From a virus, in IMG/VR virus record IMGVR_UViG_3300028837_002239, positions 1 through 25,520 of that record: a stretch of DNA of 25,520 nucleotides, one strand, 5' to 3'. Below the pieces are notes generated by a model that saw only the letters and a list, made by a program, of their open reading frames with translations, had not been told where the DNA came from and ran no database searches. The position numbers and the translations under genes are program-made. Positions 1 to 20,755 of this stretch are shown in pieces. Positions within the stretch are counted from its first letter, which is position 1. Every line of letters begins with the position of its first letter.

Positions 1-948
1 ATACGATACACCAACTGTTAGATCTGTATTTATATCATCTGTTTCTCTGAGATACGTTTCTGCTCCATTTGCATTATCCTGATAAGTTATTTTTAATGCC
101 CCGTTATCATTCTCAATCTTATTCGTCCCACACGCAGTCCAACTTTCAATTCCGCTATCAAACGTACCTTTCCCGGGGTCCATAATTTTTCGGCTCATTC
201 CATGATCCCGGATGTAATGGAAATCATCCTGTGTACCCCAATTGGTTTCATCCACGCCTACACCATCCAAATGATAATCATTACCAGAAACGTCATAAAC
301 TTTTGTTCCTACGCCTTCGCAGAGAGGATATTCTACAATATCTCCATGTTCAGAAACTGCTTCATTCCATGTTTTTACAGCACTAAAAACTTTAATGTTC
401 CAAGCGCACCCTGTAAAAGACCAGCTTGTCGCTTGAAATAATCTATCGAAAAGAAAATCCTCATTACTAGAAAGTGTCTTCTCAGATTCAACTAATACAT
501 CGTCTATATAAAGATTTAATGCCGTATCGTTTCTTGTAACTAATACACGATGAAATTCTCCATCGTCTAATATGCCTGTTACTAGCCACGCTACATTCAC
601 ACCACCACTAAAATAAATTAAATATCTATTGGTATGATAATAATATAAAGAAGAATCCTCTTTCACACCAGAAGATACAAACATTGATGACGCTGCATTA
701 GTTATACTCGAAACTTCAAAATATATTGAATGTGTTTTACTAATATTTTTATCGGCAGCAGATGTAGATGCATACGCCGCCGCATCTCCATGAAAGCAAG
801 CAGCATCCACACTAATACCATGATATTGAGCCTGACCGGCGTATACTAGATCGTTGCCTAAACAGTCTAAAGTTGGTATAACGCCTGACGACATATCTGG
901 CGGGACCTCATCATAAGTTACATTCTGATTATACCCATACTTATTCAT
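1..948 (-). CDS. LamG-like phage surface/tail protein, partial (C-terminus beyond window)
   Basis: An uninterrupted minus-strand frame runs from an ATG at 948 to the left edge, 316 codons, with no stop seen. Its ATG overlaps the last codons of the upstream LamG gene, which stops at 941-943, so the two are probably translationally coupled. The protein has the sequence texture of a concanavalin A-like/LamG jelly-roll: around residues 75-180 there are stretches such as KTHSIYFEVSS, WLVTGILDDGEFHRVLVTRN and LNLYIDDVLVES, the last two matching the usual 'W H ... v.ng..l YiDG' strands. It is probably a tail-associated receptor-binding or decoration protein that contacts host glycans; this is inferred from the fold and from its place at the end of the virion operon. 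It looks like a diverged paralogue of its neighbour. The missing C-terminus could hold the actual tip or enzyme domain. Confidence 0.8.
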   Translation of the reverse strand, partial: MNKYGYNQNVTYDEVPPDMSSGVIPTLDCLGNDLVYAGQAQYHGISVDAACFHGDAAAYASTSAADKNISKTHSIYFEVSSITNAASSMFVSSGVKEDSSLYYYHTNRYLIYFSGGVNVAWLVTGILDDGEFHRVLVTRNDTALNLYIDDVLVESEKTLSSNEDFLFDRLFQATSWSFTGCAWNIKVFSAVKTWNEAVSEHGDIVEYPLCEGVGTKVYDVSGNDYHLDGVGVDETNWGTQDDFHYIRDHGMSRKIMDPGKGTFDSGIESWTACGTNKIENDNGALKITYQDNANGAETYLRETDDINTDLTVGVSY

Positions 949-1864
949 GAGACTCTGCATCATCAGCTGTTAAAAGTCTCTTGATAACACGAACATCCCG
1001 AATGCTTGGACCATTCCATATATTTGATACACCAGATCCACCTACAGCATTTCTAGCTCCTATTGTAAACTCCCAAGCAGGGCCCATAATATCCATTGTC
1101 TCACCAGTAATGTCAAGAGTAGAACCTACATGTACACCATCTTCATATAACTTAACTTCCTTACTAGTATTATCTATCTGCAAAATATAATGATGCCACT
1201 CTCCATCGTCCTTACCAGAAGTTCCGTAAATACTACGAGAACCACCAGAAGTATTAATAATAGCCCTTACTTGATTACCACTAGTATTCCATAGTATTTC
1301 ATAACTACCCTCACGCACACCCGCAACGCCCTTTCCAGCAAGACCATGATAAGCAGACACGGAAGTTGCTCTTGTCCATATACTTAAACTAAGATCTCCA
1401 TTATTTACTTCCAATTCATTACTAATCTCAGCATACTGAACATAATTTGTTCCATCACCTTCATAAGCCCTACCTGGAAAAATCTCCCCATCTAATAATT
1501 CTCGGTCCTGCTGACCATGCTTATCAGTGACATACGAATCTCTTGGAACTCCACCAAATAACCAAATGGCGAGTGCATTCTTGATTGTGCCGGATAGGCC
1601 TACCTTCTTACGCCGCCTGAATCCCCCTACACGAACAGATCCGGATGCAAGTTGCACACCGGTAAATTTCGTATGGGCAAATATTCTCTCCCCGGCAGAT
1701 TGAACTCCGGATACATTATGACTGGTTATGGGTGTCGTTATCCCGGCCTCATTAATTGTGGTAAATACTGCATCTTCCAGGATCTCAATAACATTACCCT
1801 CAACGGCAACTAAATCAGTTCCTGTGATTTTCTTTGATCCGTATTTTGCTGTTCTCATATACAT
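941..1864 (-). CDS. LamG-domain tail/adhesin protein
   Basis: 307 aa. Residues 1-130 are a virion-attachment-like region with no recognised domain. Residues about 133-300 look like a LamG/concanavalin A-like lectin domain: YVQYAEISNELEVNNGDLSLSIWTR and DDGEWHHYILQIDN followed by VKLYEDGVHVGS are the typical core strands, with the WHH signature and a 'dG' turn. Such domains in phages sit in tail fibres or appendages and bind surface carbohydrate; the family is known, the role here is inferred. The gene follows the last connector gene and precedes a second LamG protein that overlaps its stop. The start is unusual: on the coding strand a run of eleven G lies 8 nt before the ATG (1862-1864), and the preceding gene ends in five TAA codons plus TGA. 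A second ATG two codons later is an alternative start. Confidence 0.82.
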   Translation of the reverse strand: MYMRTAKYGSKKITGTDLVAVEGNVIEILEDAVFTTINEAGITTPITSHNVSGVQSAGERIFAHTKFTGVQLASGSVRVGGFRRRKKVGLSGTIKNALAIWLFGGVPRDSYVTDKHGQQDRELLDGEIFPGRAYEGDGTNYVQYAEISNELEVNNGDLSLSIWTRATSVSAYHGLAGKGVAGVREGSYEILWNTSGNQVRAIINTSGGSRSIYGTSGKDDGEWHHYILQIDNTSKEVKLYEDGVHVGSTLDITGETMDIMGPAWEFTIGARNAVGGSGVSNIWNGPSIRDVRVIKRLLTADDAESHE

Positions 1865-12975: not shown

Positions 12976-13683
12976 TTATAAATACGGTTCGTACCGCTTA
13001 TTGTAATTCAATCCTTTAAGTTTTCTGCTACGAGCCAGTCTAATCCCAGCATCCGTTATTTCTAACGGGATCTCCCTGGTAACAGCTTCTTGGTGTTTTG
13101 GTTCCTTCAACTCTGTAAACGGACCAAAAGCACTAAAGTTATTATTATATACTTTTTCTAGCACCTCACGCTTGTTCTCCGCCAGAACCTGGTGTACCGG
13201 CTTCGGATCATCTGTAAAGATAGATGATTGACCGTTGCTAACAAATAAATAATCAACCCCCATACCAAGTTCTACATATCTCCTAAGTATAGTTGAAATA
13301 TCTTCATTATCTATGTATGAACGCTCTTTTATAATCTCTAACAATTCCCCAGGTAATCTAATGGAAGTGCTGGTCAACACAGGTTTAGAAGAATAATTAA
13401 ATTCGTAACTGTTATTGTGCTGAATATTATAAAGTTTATGTGTCTTCTGGTACTCCTTTATCGCCTTCTGTTCCGCACCTAAAGCCAAAGCTCTAGTCCG
13501 ATGAGAGGACAAAACCTCTAACGTGAAAGCCTCCTTACCATGCTCAGCAATGGCCTTCTTGATCTCTTTTCCCGATCCTAGATAGCCATCCCATTCCTTT
13601 CCAGTTTTATGGCATCCTATATATTTCATACCATTAACCGAATTGGTCACTACATAAACACAATATTGTTTTCCGTCTTTCAC
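12976..13683 (-). CDS. GIY-YIG endonuclease with ribbon-helix-helix segment
   Basis: 235 aa from the GTG at 13683. The GIY-YIG nuclease core is residues 8-80: CVYVVTN, KYIGCHK (20-26), a GYLGSGK loop (33-39), then GKEAFTLEVL and an alpha-helical end. Residues 105-141 (TSIRLPGELLEIIKERSYIDNEDISTILRRYVELG) have the strand-helix-helix pattern of an Arc/MetJ-type ribbon-helix-helix DNA-binding domain. Free-standing GIY-YIG enzymes in phages are often homing endonucleases; beside TerL it might also act in packaging. A well-formed promoter (13688-13719) overlaps the codons of two upstream TTG starts (13701, 13698), so translation probably begins at this GTG on an almost leaderless mRNA. The next ATG would remove the GIY motif. 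Confidence 0.75.
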   Translation of the reverse strand: MKDGKQYCVYVVTNSVNGMKYIGCHKTGKEWDGYLGSGKEIKKAIAEHGKEAFTLEVLSSHRTRALALGAEQKAIKEYQKTHKLYNIQHNNSYEFNYSSKPVLTSTSIRLPGELLEIIKERSYIDNEDISTILRRYVELGMGVDYLFVSNGQSSIFTDDPKPVHQVLAENKREVLEKVYNNNFSAFGPFTELKEPKHQEAVTREIPLEITDAGIRLARSRKLKGLNYNKRYEPYL

Positions 13684-13687
13684 ATTA

Positions 13688-13719
13688 CAAAGATACAACA
13701 AATAAATTTAAGAACCAAA
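13688..13719 (-). promoter_or_regulatory. Bacteroidota-type promoter driving the packaging operon
   Basis: On the minus strand TTTG (13719-13716) and TATCTTTG (13695-13688) are 20 nt apart. The start of transcription should be near 13684, one base before the GTG of the GIY-YIG gene. This would be the leading promoter for terminase and portal. Confidence 0.75.
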
Positions 13720-13976: not shown

Positions 13977-14007
13977 TTGCGTATCTCAGAAATTGTTTAT
14001 ACCTTTG
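13977..14007 (+). promoter_or_regulatory. Bacteroidota-type promoter for the metallophosphoesterase
   Basis: TTG (13977-13979), 20-nt spacer, TACCTTTG (14000-14007). The predicted start is near 14011, 14 nt before the ATG at 14025, which rules out the upstream TTG start at 13977. Confidence 0.75.
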
Positions 14008-14024
14008 CACATAAATTCAAATCT

Positions 14025-14879
14025 ATGGCAAAAACACAATTTGATTTAGAGCTGTATCACCAGATGTACCAGCTTTACAAAATCTCACAAGAGCAAGGCG
14101 TGAAACTGTATGCTGAATCCCTCAGTCACCATTTTGAAATTCCTGACCGTACAGCTCGGTATTATTTCTTCATGGTTGAAAACAATTACCGGATGAACGA
14201 CCAAAGCGGTCAGGAGAATCGTCTGGTCATTCCTGATATCCATGCACCATTTGTCAAGGAGGGGTTTCTGGAACACTGTATGAAAGTCTACCATGACTAT
14301 CGGTGCAATAAAGTGACATTCCTGGGAGATATCCTGGATAATCATTTCACTTCATTTTGGAAAACTGACCCTGATGGATTATCAGCCAAGGATGAAACTG
14401 AGCTGGCCATTAAGATTCTTCAACCATGGTACAATGCATTTCCTGATGCAGAGATTTGTATAGGTAACCATGATGCTAGACCCAGGCGTCAGGCATTTGA
14501 TGCAGGCATTTCTGAAAAATGGATCAAAGATTATTCCGATGTTATTGAAACCCCTGGATGGGTATGGGATGATTACTGGGACCATTATGATGTCCGTTAT
14601 ACCCATGGAGATGGACCAGGAGGGGCTGTTAATGGTGCCTTCAATCGAGTACTCCACTGGAGGATGTCTACCGTACAGGGGCATTGGCATACTAGTTCTT
14701 ATATCCGTTGGAGTGTTTCCGAAAAGGATAGATTATTCGCATTTCAATTAGGATGCGGAATGGATTATAAATCTTATGCTGCCGCCTACGGTAAAAAAGC
14801 ACAAAAGAAACCAGTGATTGGATGTGGTGTTGTTCTGGATTATGGCAGAATCCCGATTCACCTCCCAATGTATCTGTAA
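14025..14879 (+). CDS. Calcineurin-type metallophosphoesterase with N-terminal HTH-like segment
   Basis: 284 aa. All metal-binding motifs of the family are visible: DIH (71-73), GD (101-102, in FLGDILDN), GNHD (147-150), H194 in YTHGDG, and GHWH (219-222). They build a two-metal centre that hydrolyses phosphoesters of DNA, RNA, nucleotides or proteins; the substrate cannot be told. Residues 1-55 (LYHQMYQLYKISQEQGVKLYAESLSHHFEIPDRTARYYFF) look like a helix-turn-helix, as in phage proteins that join DNA binding to this phosphatase. The ATG at 14025 is chosen because the promoter lies just upstream. The gene is immediately upstream of the tmRNA locus, and RNA-repair genes follow further on, so an RNA-end or cyclic-phosphate substrate is conceivable but unproven. 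Confidence 0.85.
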   Translation: MAKTQFDLELYHQMYQLYKISQEQGVKLYAESLSHHFEIPDRTARYYFFMVENNYRMNDQSGQENRLVIPDIHAPFVKEGFLEHCMKVYHDYRCNKVTFLGDILDNHFTSFWKTDPDGLSAKDETELAIKILQPWYNAFPDAEICIGNHDARPRRQAFDAGISEKWIKDYSDVIETPGWVWDDYWDHYDVRYTHGDGPGGAVNGAFNRVLHWRMSTVQGHWHTSSYIRWSVSEKDRLFAFQLGCGMDYKSYAAAYGKKAQKKPVIGCGVVLDYGRIPIHLPMYL

Positions 14880-14908: not shown

Positions 14909-14939
14909 TTGCACAGGTCAGAAATTTACTTTAACTTTG
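14909..14939 (+). promoter_or_regulatory. Promoter of the permuted tmRNA gene
   Basis: TTG (14909-14911), 20-nt spacer, TAACTTTG (14932-14939). The expected start of transcription, near 14943, coincides with the first base-paired nucleotides of the tmRNA acceptor piece (14945). Confidence 0.8.
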
Positions 14940-14942
14940 TAA

Positions 14943-15007
14943 AAGTTCTTTGAGATCGATATTTCGAAACGTGTTTGGACCGGGGTTCGAATCCCGCATC
15001 TCCACTA
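14943..15007 (+). ncRNA. tmRNA acceptor piece (3' tRNA-like domain)
   Basis: About 60-65 nt comprising the 3' strand of P2, the T-arm (around 14979-14996) and the 3' acceptor strand ending at the discriminator A (15004). The T-stem is irregular: CGGG/CCCG pairs only if one extra G is bulged or joins the loop. Mature 3' CCA would have to be added after trimming. Confidence 0.8.
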
Positions 15008-15187
15008 GAAAAGTCCAACCGGCAGCTATCTCCAGAAATGGTAGTGTCAGTTCGGCTCTGGCCTTGGGGGATGTCTGAGTGATCTGCAGAGAGTCTACTT
15101 TGAGGAAAGTAAAGATTCGCAGATTTAAGCTCGGGCTTCCTCCCCCCTTGTTCACGTTACGTGGACATTGGAAGAAATTGAACATAT
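15008..15187 (+). other. Internal transcribed spacer of the tmRNA, highly structured
   Basis: The segment between mature acceptor and coding pieces can fold as a closed junction. GGGGGA (15066-15071) pairs with TCCCCC (15141-15146), enclosing a 17-bp hairpin (15082-15124: ATCTGC, GAGTCT and ACTTT with their partners, loop GAGG) and a small hairpin AAGC-TCGG-GCTT (15127-15138). Outside it are GTTCACG-TTA-CGTGGAC (15150-15166) and a CCAGA/TCTGG stem (15032-15061). No protein frame is evident. Confidence 0.65.
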
Positions 15188-15335
15188 GGGGATGAATGTT
15201 TTGACAGCATGGTAGTAGGGTATCAGGAGAGAACAAGCCAATTAACAGGCGAAAATGTTATTCAAATGGAAACTGTCCAGCTCAAGGTAGCTGCATAGAT
15301 TCCGCCCGGGGTCCCTTCGGGGGCTTCCCGGGTTA
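15188..15335 (+). ncRNA. tmRNA coding piece (5' tRNA-like end, P2 strand and tag)
   Basis: Begins with the 5' acceptor strand GGGGATG, then the shortened D-like loop, the P2 5' strands, a small GCC/GGC hairpin candidate and the tag frame. It ends with a strong hairpin CCCGGG...CCCGGG (15305-15332) containing an inner TCCC-TTCG-GGGG stem, a remnant pseudoknot domain or 3' boundary. The exact 3' end is not determinable. Confidence 0.78.
15248..15298 (+). CDS. tmRNA proteolysis-tag reading frame (16 codons plus TAG)
   Basis: Read from the probable resume codon GGC, the frame gives GENVIQMETVQLKVAA and stops at TAG. The start GEN matches tags of Bacteroidota tmRNAs, which as I recall run like GE(T/N)NYALAA. 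The end VAA is a variant of the LAA degron read by ClpXP. It is longer than the usual 9-11 residues. The resume codon is inferred from this resemblance, not proved. Confidence 0.72.
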   Translation, partial: GENVIQMETVQLKVAA

Positions 15336-15351
15336 GCTTAAAACGTGATAA

Positions 15352-16062
15352 ATGAAAAAAGTAATCGAATTATTTCAAGGTCGTGCCAGATCGATCACAT
15401 CCTTTTTGGATAATCTGGACATCAATGCTGAAACTGTAGCAAAGATTAACAAATTGGGAGAGAAAGCCTTTAAGATCTACAATGAACTTCACGGTACAAT
15501 AAAAAATGAGGAGGAGTATAAAAAACTTTCTCCCATTGAACAACAAGCTTTACATGAGAATACCCGAACTTATGCCGAGCTGCTCACCGCAATGAATCAA
15601 GAACTTGCCTACCTTTTACAATCCAAACATCCACTCGCCCTTGGAGATTGCCTGGGTAAAATTACCGAAGTCAATATGCTATTTGATCATATAATCGATA
15701 GATGGGGAGGCCAGGATGGAAAATTCAAATATTCTACCCTCAAACATGTACGTGAAAAAGGTTGGGAAAAAATAAAGTACAAAGATAAAATATTCAACCT
15801 GAGTACCGAACTGGATCTGCTCACTGAAGATGTTGGGGCCCAACTTAATGACAATCCAATACTTATGGAACCTACGGAAAGAACTGTATTGAACGACATT
15901 TATGTGTCCCTTGTTGTAGCACTGGCGTGGCTTAATAGTGAGTATGATCGTATTGAAAAAGAAGGGATGCCTGAAGCGAGAGAATTTACACTCCCTGAAT
16001 TACAGGTACCTAAAATACCTGAAGACGGTGAAAAGGATCAGCCAGAAAAAACTGAGGGATAA
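15352..16062 (+). CDS. Hypothetical helical protein (236 aa)
   Basis: 236 aa, soluble, mostly helical and charged, with an acidic Pro/Glu/Lys tail (VPKIPEDGEKDQPEKTEG). No motif that I recognise. It starts 12 nt after the end of the tmRNA region, so it may be on the same transcript; its ATG is preceded almost directly by the nonamer AACGTGATA seen also in the leaders of two virion genes. That shared leader hints at common regulation with late genes, but the function is unknown. Confidence 0.6.
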   Translation: MKKVIELFQGRARSITSFLDNLDINAETVAKINKLGEKAFKIYNELHGTIKNEEEYKKLSPIEQQALHENTRTYAELLTAMNQELAYLLQSKHPLALGDCLGKITEVNMLFDHIIDRWGGQDGKFKYSTLKHVREKGWEKIKYKDKIFNLSTELDLLTEDVGAQLNDNPILMEPTERTVLNDIYVSLVVALAWLNSEYDRIEKEGMPEAREFTLPELQVPKIPEDGEKDQPEKTEG

Positions 16063-18899: not shown

Positions 18900-19375
18900 A
18901 AAAATTAATAACATTATTATTACTTGCAACTTTATTAAGTTGTAAATGTTATCTGCAACAGCCTTTAACACAGTTTATATATGTAGATTCTACCTGCACT
19001 GCCATCATTCCAGATTACCTTCCACTGGCGATTATATGGGATAACTGTGATGGTTACACTGTTACTCAAACTCCTCCGGCTGGGGCTTCTATGGAATCTA
19101 GCTATGGAGTTGTAACGATAAAAGTTATTGATGAATTTCAGAATGCGGATTCAGTAGTGTTTGATATTATCAAAGTTGATACTATAGCACCTACTATAAC
19201 TATTGATACGGCCCTTTGGAATAACTGGGTTCCACCTATAGTGGACAATGATTCTATGATCCTAGTTACCATTACCGGACCGGGTAATGCAGGCTCCTGG
19301 GGATTTCTAACAAATCCAGGAAAGCATGTAGTAGTTATGAATGATGAACAATTTGATAAATATTGGGAACAATGA
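18896..19375 (+). CDS. HYR-like domain lipoprotein (159 aa)
   Basis: 159 aa. It begins MKKLITLLLLATLLSC, a type II signal peptide with lipobox LLSC (Cys 16). Residues about 35-100 follow the HYR (hyalin repeat) pattern: C34 with pD downstream, WDNCDG (C50), TQTPPAGAS, a beta strand, D..GN-like DEFQNAD, then VDTIAPTI. HYR domains are immunoglobulin-like adhesion modules common in Bacteroidota surface proteins. Anchored to the host's outer or inner membrane it could block superinfection or mask a receptor; this is inference. Overlaps its neighbours by ATGA at both ends. Confidence 0.7.
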   Translation: MKKLITLLLLATLLSCKCYLQQPLTQFIYVDSTCTAIIPDYLPLAIIWDNCDGYTVTQTPPAGASMESSYGVVTIKVIDEFQNADSVVFDIIKVDTIAPTITIDTALWNNWVPPIVDNDSMILVTITGPGNAGSWGFLTNPGKHVVVMNDEQFDKYWEQ

Positions 19376-19836
19376 AAAAATATGTAATAGTAGATATTGA
19401 TGGTACAGTTGCGATCAATAAAATACGACAACAGAACATTCTTGAAGGCCTAAAGACCACGAAGGTTGAGGAAATGCCGTGGGAGGACCTGTTTGATGGT
19501 TGTGAGAATGATTCTCCAATTGAGCCAATAGTCGGCCTAGTGAAAAAACTAAGTAATCATTATCAGGTAGTTTTCTGCACCAGTAGAAATATTGCCTTCC
19601 GGGACCGGACCAGGGGTTGGATCGATAGATTTACCGGTTTAAACCTGGCTCCTTTATTGATGCGGAAATCTCCAGATGATCACAGATCCGATACCATAGT
19701 GAAACCAGAACTCCTGGAGGAGGCCGGGATTACAACTGAAAATACAGCATTCATTATTGAGGATAAAAATTCTACGGTACAGGCCTGGAGGGATCTTGGA
19801 TTTACCGTACTGCAGCCGGCCAATAACGAATATTAA
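19372..19836 (+). CDS. Polynucleotide 3'-phosphatase (T4 Pnkp-type HAD domain)
   Basis: 154 aa from the ATG at 19372, which overlaps the previous stop; an upstream TTG is less likely. HAD motifs: DIDGT (8-12, nucleophile D8 and acid D10), TSR (70-72), LLMRKSPDDHRSD and K111, then IIEDK (128-132). The phrasing LMR...D.R.D...K...L and the end VQAWRDLGFTVLQ closely follow the phosphatase half of T4 polynucleotide kinase-phosphatase, which removes 3'-phosphate or 2',3'-cyclic phosphate from broken RNA. The kinase half is absent. The stop is followed one base later by the RNA ligase, so the two form an end-healing and sealing pair. Confidence 0.82.
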   Translation: MKKYVIVDIDGTVAINKIRQQNILEGLKTTKVEEMPWEDLFDGCENDSPIEPIVGLVKKLSNHYQVVFCTSRNIAFRDRTRGWIDRFTGLNLAPLLMRKSPDDHRSDTIVKPELLEEAGITTENTAFIIEDKNSTVQAWRDLGFTVLQPANNEY

Positions 19837-19837
19837 T

Positions 19838-20755
19838 TTGAAAGAATTCGCTAAATATCAACACATTGAACGTTTTGGCCATGATAAGGTAGCCGACATC
19901 AACCTAGGTCTTTGTCACATATTCTCAAAGATCGATGGCGCCAATGCCAGTGTATGGTTAGGAGATGATGGGAAGATACATGCCGGCAGTAGAAAAAAGG
20001 AGCTATCAGAGGAATTTGATAACCACGGCTTTTATAAATATATTACTCAAGACAAGCGCATAAGGGACCTCCTGAATGCCAGACCAGAGCTTCGCCTTTT
20101 TGGAGAATGGCTGGTACCACACACTTTAAAAATATACCGGTTTGACGCCTGGAGGAAGTTTTACGTATTTGACGTTACGTACTTTACACCAGAGATGGGG
20201 ATTCGCCATATGCCATACGATATATACAAGGATCTCTTGGATCAGTATGAGCTTGATTATTTGGCTCCTATAGCTATAATCAAAAATCCGACCTATGATA
20301 GACTAGTGGATCTTCTTGATAAAACTATGGATCTCATCGAAGATGGGAAGGGGCCAGGTGAAGGCATTGTAATTAAGAATTATGATTTTATCAATCAGTA
20401 TGGTAGAACTACCTGGGCTAAGATAGTTCGGGCTGAATTCAAAGAAGAATTCCACAAAGCCATGGGTCCTCCTAACATTAAAGAAAAGGGCATCCTGGAA
20501 GAAAACATAGCCAGGGATTATATCACCGAAGCTATGGTCGATAAGGTTTATGCTAATATCGTCAACGAGCAGGGAGAATGGAAATCACAATATATCCCTA
20601 GATTGCTAAGTACCGTATTCCATGATTTGGTTAATGAGGAGATATGGACTATTATTAAGAAGTATAAGAATCCGACTATTCACTTCGACATGTTATTAAA
20701 ATTCACAATACTCGTAATTAAATCACTTAAATCTGACTTATTCTTAAAAAAATGA
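19838..20755 (+). CDS. RNA ligase (PF09414-like, Rnl2-type nucleotidyltransferase)
   Basis: 305 aa from TTG 19838, immediately after the phosphatase stop; a longer frame from 19757 would overlap that gene deeply. Nucleotidyltransferase motifs in order: I, KIDGAN (K31 is the adenylated lysine); GSRKKEL (50-56); III, LFGEW (87-91); IIIa, FYVFDV (108-113); IV, GEGIVIK (174-180); V, WAKIVRAEFKE (193-203). It joins 3'-OH and 5'-phosphate RNA ends with ATP. Residues beyond 210 form a helical C-terminal domain. With the 3'-phosphatase next door, it likely repairs host or phage tRNA or other RNA cut by host nucleases, as T4 Pnkp and Rnl1 do; the actual substrate is unknown. Confidence 0.85.
   Translation: MKEFAKYQHIERFGHDKVADINLGLCHIFSKIDGANASVWLGDDGKIHAGSRKKELSEEFDNHGFYKYITQDKRIRDLLNARPELRLFGEWLVPHTLKIYRFDAWRKFYVFDVTYFTPEMGIRHMPYDIYKDLLDQYELDYLAPIAIIKNPTYDRLVDLLDKTMDLIEDGKGPGEGIVIKNYDFINQYGRTTWAKIVRAEFKEEFHKAMGPPNIKEKGILEENIARDYITEAMVDKVYANIVNEQGEWKSQYIPRLLSTVFHDLVNEEIWTIIKKYKNPTIHFDMLLKFTILVIKSLKSDLFLKK

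Follow-up and report, generated by a model that had tools for sequence, protein, structure and literature searches.

A tmRNA gene lies on the plus strand of the window (the whole 25,520-nt stretch of phage DNA analyzed here), between a metallophosphoesterase gene and an ORF without PHROG or Pfam matches. The 3' half of the tmRNA is located upstream of the 5' half, which is the order of circularly permuted two-piece tmRNAs. The features of the locus are as follows.

13977–14879, plus strand: upstream metallophosphoesterase gene (PHROG 221).
14909–14939, plus strand: Bacteroidota-type promoter, with TTG(CAC) at 14909–14914 and TAACTTTG at 14932–14939, 20 nt from TTG to TAAC; the start site is predicted.
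14945–15004, plus strand: acceptor piece, ~60 nt, CCA not encoded (RF04321 match and covariation).
14945–14951, 14958–14963, and 14970–14975, plus strand: P2 3' strands GTTCTTT, GATATT, and CGTGTT of the acceptor piece.
14981–14996, plus strand: T-arm of the acceptor piece, one C short compared with relatives.
14997–15003, plus strand: acceptor 3' strand CATCTCC, followed by the discriminator A at 15004.
15005–15187, plus strand: intervening segment (IVS), 183 nt, between the two mature ends and predicted to be removed at maturation.
15008–15150, plus strand: conserved structured RNA within the IVS, ~143 nt (alignment, shuffles, and covariance model).
15188–15335, plus strand: coding piece, 3' end approximate (RF04321 match, covariation, and fold).
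15188–15194, plus strand: acceptor 5' strand GGGGATG, followed by the D-region; the 5' half starts GGGGATGAATGTTTTGACAG.
15206–15211, 15219–15224, and 15228–15234, plus strand: P2 5' strands AGCATG, GGTATC, and AGAGAAC of the coding piece.
15248–15298, plus strand: tag reading frame GGC...TAG, encoding GENVIQMETVQLKVAA and a stop (seven relatives have homologous tags in the corresponding position).
15305–15332, plus strand: CCCGGG...CCCGGG hairpin after the tag, where the coding piece probably ends (fold).
15352–16062, plus strand: downstream ORF with no PHROG or Pfam match.

The acceptor stem of the window (GGGGATG/CATCTCC) is followed by A73 and contains a G3.U70 pair. Together with the three P2 helices it gives helices of 7, 6, 6, and 7 bp in nested order, at the positions and with the sizes that the initial annotation had claimed. 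The Rfam model for permuted tmRNA (RF04321, tmRNA_permuted) aligns to 14945–15298 (plus strand) over the full length of the model, with a score of 44.4 bits (E = 1.2e-7 in a 521-base scan with 4227 families; 1.4e-9 for the record). The curated cut-off of this model is 47 bits, and because the window copy falls just below it, a routine Rfam scan at curated cut-offs reports nothing for the window tmRNA. The covariance-model search that the initial annotation had proposed thus yielded a full-length match to the general permuted model, while the window had no match to the alphaproteobacterial and cyanobacterial models and scored 11.1 bits with the betaproteobacterial one (RF01849–RF01851). The best relative on these lineage models, L049, scored 47 bits with the betaproteobacterial model (cut-off 84) and 44.2 bits with the cyanobacterial one (cut-off 70). 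No member reached the curated cut-off of any of the three models, and the group is therefore no simple copy of those lineages.

Two parts of the window copy are unusual. Its T-stem reads CCCG (14993–14996) as compared with CCCCG in relatives, which results in 4 bp and an 8-nt loop, whereas a T-arm of 5 bp and a 7-nt loop is intact in the seven relatives. The missing C is either a real deletion or lesion or an assembly error, and the window copy might therefore be impaired or mis-assembled. In the distant phages L019 and L032 the T-loop is CUCGUUA instead of UUCRANY, with the 5-bp stem intact. The pseudoknot PK1 before the tag seems to be absent from the window, since the resume codon follows the last P2 strand after only 13 nt (15235–15247), leaving no room for it. 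PK1 is typically retained in two-piece tmRNAs (PMC3985003). However, a small hairpin can replace it, according to work cited in PMC3968760, and pseudoknots are few or absent in the tmRNAs of plastids (PMC3985003). A missing PK1 thus excludes neither membership among tmRNAs nor function. In L016, L019, and L021, inspection of the sequence downstream of the tag allows hairpins comparable to the one at 15305–15332 to be drawn.

Relatives were sought among IMG/VR phages through terminase, metallophosphoesterase, portal, and tmRNA patterns. Permuted tmRNAs were found at seven further distinct loci, making eight with the window. Their RF04321 scores range from 37.5 to 71.7 bits around the cut-off of 47 (L016, 48.6, three contigs; L019, 45.8, two contigs; L021, 43.5; L022, 44.9; L032, 37.5; L050, 55.3; and L049, 71.7). 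ARAGORN called permuted tmRNAs (tmRNA*) in L021, L022, L049, and L050; it called no tmRNA in the window and no permuted tmRNA in L016 or L032. One further candidate with a 21-base T-arm match, the 99-kb phage contig L002, was rejected: positions 1–1450 (minus strand) hold a tRNA cluster in which the anticodon region of several tRNA-like genes is enlarged by long inserts or additional segments, with no convincing tmRNA. In Cellulophaga phage phi38:1 (L070, 1715–2074, minus strand), ARAGORN called a nonpermuted tmRNA that is absent from the record features at ~26.6 kb.

Covariation across the eight loci is seen in the acceptor helix, the T helix, and all three P2 helices. Standard pairs occupy 227 of 233 cells (acceptor, 56/56; T, 39/39; P2a, 48/48; P2b, 38/42; P2c, 46/48), a figure that is inflated because the helix strands were picked by eye, as compared with only 50–84% standard pairs when strands were swapped between loci. 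Changes on both sides of a pair occur in 3 of 7 acceptor columns, 4 of 5 T columns, 4 of 6 P2a columns, and all six columns of both P2b and P2c. The compensatory changes that the initial annotation had suggested seeking in relatives are thus present in the acceptor, T, and all P2 helices. Folding without eye-picked strands recovered the same nested set of three P2 helices in most loci, with L050 a clear exception, and binding was stronger between native P2 partners than between swapped ones, the native arrangement ranking 7th among 40320 permutations. The third acceptor pair, G3.U70, which is the alanine identity signal, is G.U at all eight loci.

The tag starts at nucleotide 59–63 of the coding piece in all eight loci, and every tag ends in AA-stop; a random frame had such a stop context in 0.06% of trials. 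The tags are GENVIQMETVQLKVAA (window), GTKVIQLIPQGRFQEAA, GEKVIALPDRWLKVAA, GENVKLIPHGNFKEAA, GKVVQLSPVWSHKVAA, GESRFDQEHRLAA, GKTINMVERPQELRLAA, and AKVINLFTPQLRVAA. They are variable except for the AA end, with two ending in EAA and the others in VAA or LAA. The tag frame noted at first in the window alone, after the P2 strands of the coding piece, thus has homologs in seven relatives.

Several lines of sequence evidence fit hosts among the Bacteroidota, in agreement with the assignment made at the outset. The TATTGCA...TAnnTTT arrangement of the promoter also precedes the tmRNA in L016 and L021, and TAnnTTTG motifs occur four times upstream of window genes (1.1 expected). Shine-Dalgarno-like sites are scarce, with one in 21 window ORFs (0.9 expected). 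The closest relatives of the window metallophosphoesterase come from phages of Cellulophaga, Flavobacterium, Nonlabens, and Tenacibaculum. At the DNA level, the window had no similarity to deposited phages in the phage collection. No SmpB gene was found in related phage records, so the tmRNA would depend on SmpB of the host. Other genes of the window include a GIY-YIG gene near the tmRNA (12976–13701) and an RNA-repair pair (19363–20755) consisting of a PNKP-type phosphatase domain beside a PF09414 RNA ligase. Extra ORFs, of homing-endonuclease type as judged by eye, adjoin the tmRNA in L016 and L021.

The IVS of the window is no inert spacer, and the conserved RNA at 15008–15150 had gone unremarked in the initial annotation. 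The segment (15005–15188) folds far better than its shuffles (z -4.1). The conserved RNA starts a few nucleotides past the discriminator base, is strongly constrained, and is composed of AAGUCC/GGCCUU and CCG/CGG helices, a variable arm, a GGGGG/CCCCC helix, a covarying stem, and a hairpin whose invariant GAGG loop is able to pair with UUCCUC. Six of the eight loci share its core (window, L016, L019, L021, L022, and L050). In an alignment of five copies, 96.4% of cells are canonical and 10 pairs have two-sided changes; none of 500 shuffles reached any of the measures. In L022, for example, a G-C pair of the GGGGG/CCCCC helix is replaced by A-U, with both sides changed. A covariance model built on the five copies (R1) detected the copy in L050, which was not in the training set, with an E of 1.2e-7. 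The L050 letters corresponding to the GAGG loop and UUCCUC are GAAGA and UCUUC, and a pseudoknot between these elements is possible, as judged from their complementarity.

An Rfam search of the IVS returned no family match for this RNA. A group I intron, a self-cleaving ribozyme, and a known riboswitch were each considered and rejected, there being no plausible Rfam match up to an E of 10; the RNA may be an undescribed ribozyme. A search of GTDB genomes with the IVS RNA pattern gave one match, which is GC-rich, lacks a tmRNA, and was judged to be due to chance. Model R1 had no match in L032, L049, or two phage isolates from known Bacteroidota hosts that have permuted tmRNAs, Chryseobacterium phage MA9V-3 and Maribacter phage Panino. 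The IVS of L032 is unrelated, 281 nt in length, and without unusual folding (z -0.87), and those of L049, MA9V-3, and Panino are short. Because of these short segments in L049 and the two isolates, the long IVS with its conserved RNA looks like a derived state. In L050, an intact tRNA-Met(CAT) gene (1614–1689, minus strand) is located within the IVS directly before the 5' acceptor strand GGGG; in L019, a tRNA-Met lies directly upstream of the tmRNA.

Permuted tmRNA in MA9V-3 (PV245944.1) and Panino (PP540027.1) scores above the RF04321 cut-off, at 64.7 and 62.2 bits, respectively. GenBank lists both as 'tmRNA SsrA' without stating the permuted form, and the paper on Panino names the tmRNA gene without giving its form (PMC11590407). 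These isolates resemble the window in having a permuted tmRNA in a Bacteroidota phage and a similar tag (GNVIDINKYVAKLEVAA in MA9V-3), but differ in their short IVS (~45–60 nt), which lacks the conserved RNA. Two-piece tmRNAs have been described in phages including Methylophilales phage Melnitz, in a study where ARAGORN assigned 53 phage sequences to the two-piece form (2022, PMC9004378). Melnitz and the other marine phages of that study share the phage-encoded permuted tmRNA with the window, and an extra RNA element is likewise present. However, that extra RNA is a predicted glutamine riboswitch, whereas that of the window sits in the IVS and belongs to no Rfam family, and the Melnitz ssrA is of alphaproteobacterial type, whereas the window falls below the three lineage cut-offs and has hosts of Bacteroidota type. 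The claim that such a gene had no prior description therefore holds in part. We found no paper stating a permuted tmRNA in Bacteroidota or their phages, but with phage two-piece tmRNAs already published and the two Bacteroidota isolates deposited with one under a plain tmRNA label, the window tmRNA is a divergent form and not the first of its sort. The newest part of the finding is the conserved IVS RNA. With RF04321 (PMC11915505) the window shares gene order, the tRNA-like domain, and acceptor and P2 pairing; it differs in its subthreshold score, its long IVS, and its lack of room for PK1. A permuted tmRNA with a tRNA-Ala gene in the IVS is known from one nominally archaeal metagenome-assembled genome (PMC11915505). 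L050 is similar in having a tRNA gene within the IVS, although there it is tRNA-Met and accompanied by the conserved IVS RNA.

We consider it very probable that the phage carries a true circularly permuted two-piece tmRNA gene at this locus, and that the RNA from this gene is processed and used in ribosome rescue in the following way. The Bacteroidota-type promoter would drive synthesis of a single precursor RNA. RNase P would cut at 15188 and tRNA 3' processing would act behind 15004, cuts expected by analogy with the two-piece tmRNA of Caulobacter (PMC3985003), thereby removing the 183-nt IVS. Two products are predicted, the acceptor piece at ~60 nt and the coding piece at ~148 nt, which would remain joined through the acceptor stem and the three P2 helices; the initial annotation likewise proposed two processed RNAs, together with a putative non-host tag. 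CCA would be added by the host, and AlaRS would charge the RNA through G3.U70. Host SmpB would then deliver the tmRNA to stalled ribosomes, where A-GENVIQMETVQLKVAA would be appended for proteolysis. As for the IVS RNA, it is most likely either a putative separate small RNA freed from the precursor or a putative guide for pre-tmRNA folding and processing. More tentatively, with the odds somewhat against it, the IVS may house a new structured-RNA family released on precursor cleavage, such that one transcript would give rise to the two-piece rescue RNA as well as an independent small RNA of the phage with a job of its own.

Other explanations bear on the copy in the window or on the use of the RNA. 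That the window copy is decaying or mis-assembled, and thus broken within a functional family, is suggested by its T-stem, one base short compared with L016 and L022, and by the failure of ARAGORN to call it. Yet the other helices, G3.U70, the tag frame, and the promoter are all intact, and L016 is missed by ARAGORN as well despite its full T-stem; we regard a broken copy as quite unlikely. The score just under the curated Rfam cut-off could also be taken as a chance resemblance, arising from remnants of tRNAs or from a structured region of another kind, but five helices that covary over eight loci, a conserved tag, and independent ARAGORN calls reduce this to a negligible probability, and the covariation rules it out.

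A different use of the RNA would be to counter host trans-translation, by competing with the host tmRNA and, through an altered tag, sparing or redirecting proteins. The freedom with which the tags vary save for the AA end, two of them having EAA rather than VAA or LAA, is consistent with this. Selection has nevertheless kept the tag frame, mostly VAA or LAA ends, and G3.U70, as real tagging predicts, and we judge a countering role unlikely. The RNA ligase and the adjacent PNKP-like phosphatase encoded in the window raise the idea that the two pieces are rejoined, but an RNA ligase is present in none of 11 other related or tmRNA-bearing records (some of them fragments), which makes rejoining very improbable.

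Two-piece tmRNA has been described in alpha- and betaproteobacteria, in cyanobacteria, and in some phages of these bacteria. The gene widens this range to include a group of Bacteroidota phages, in which standard annotation partly overlooks it. In the isolates identified here, the benefit that a phage draws from its own rescue RNA can be tested. If the IVS RNA is indeed released, its possible jobs would include regulation, acting as a decoy for a host factor, and control of tmRNA maturation. Its conservation indicates that strong selection can act on a segment of a permuted gene that is supposedly discarded.
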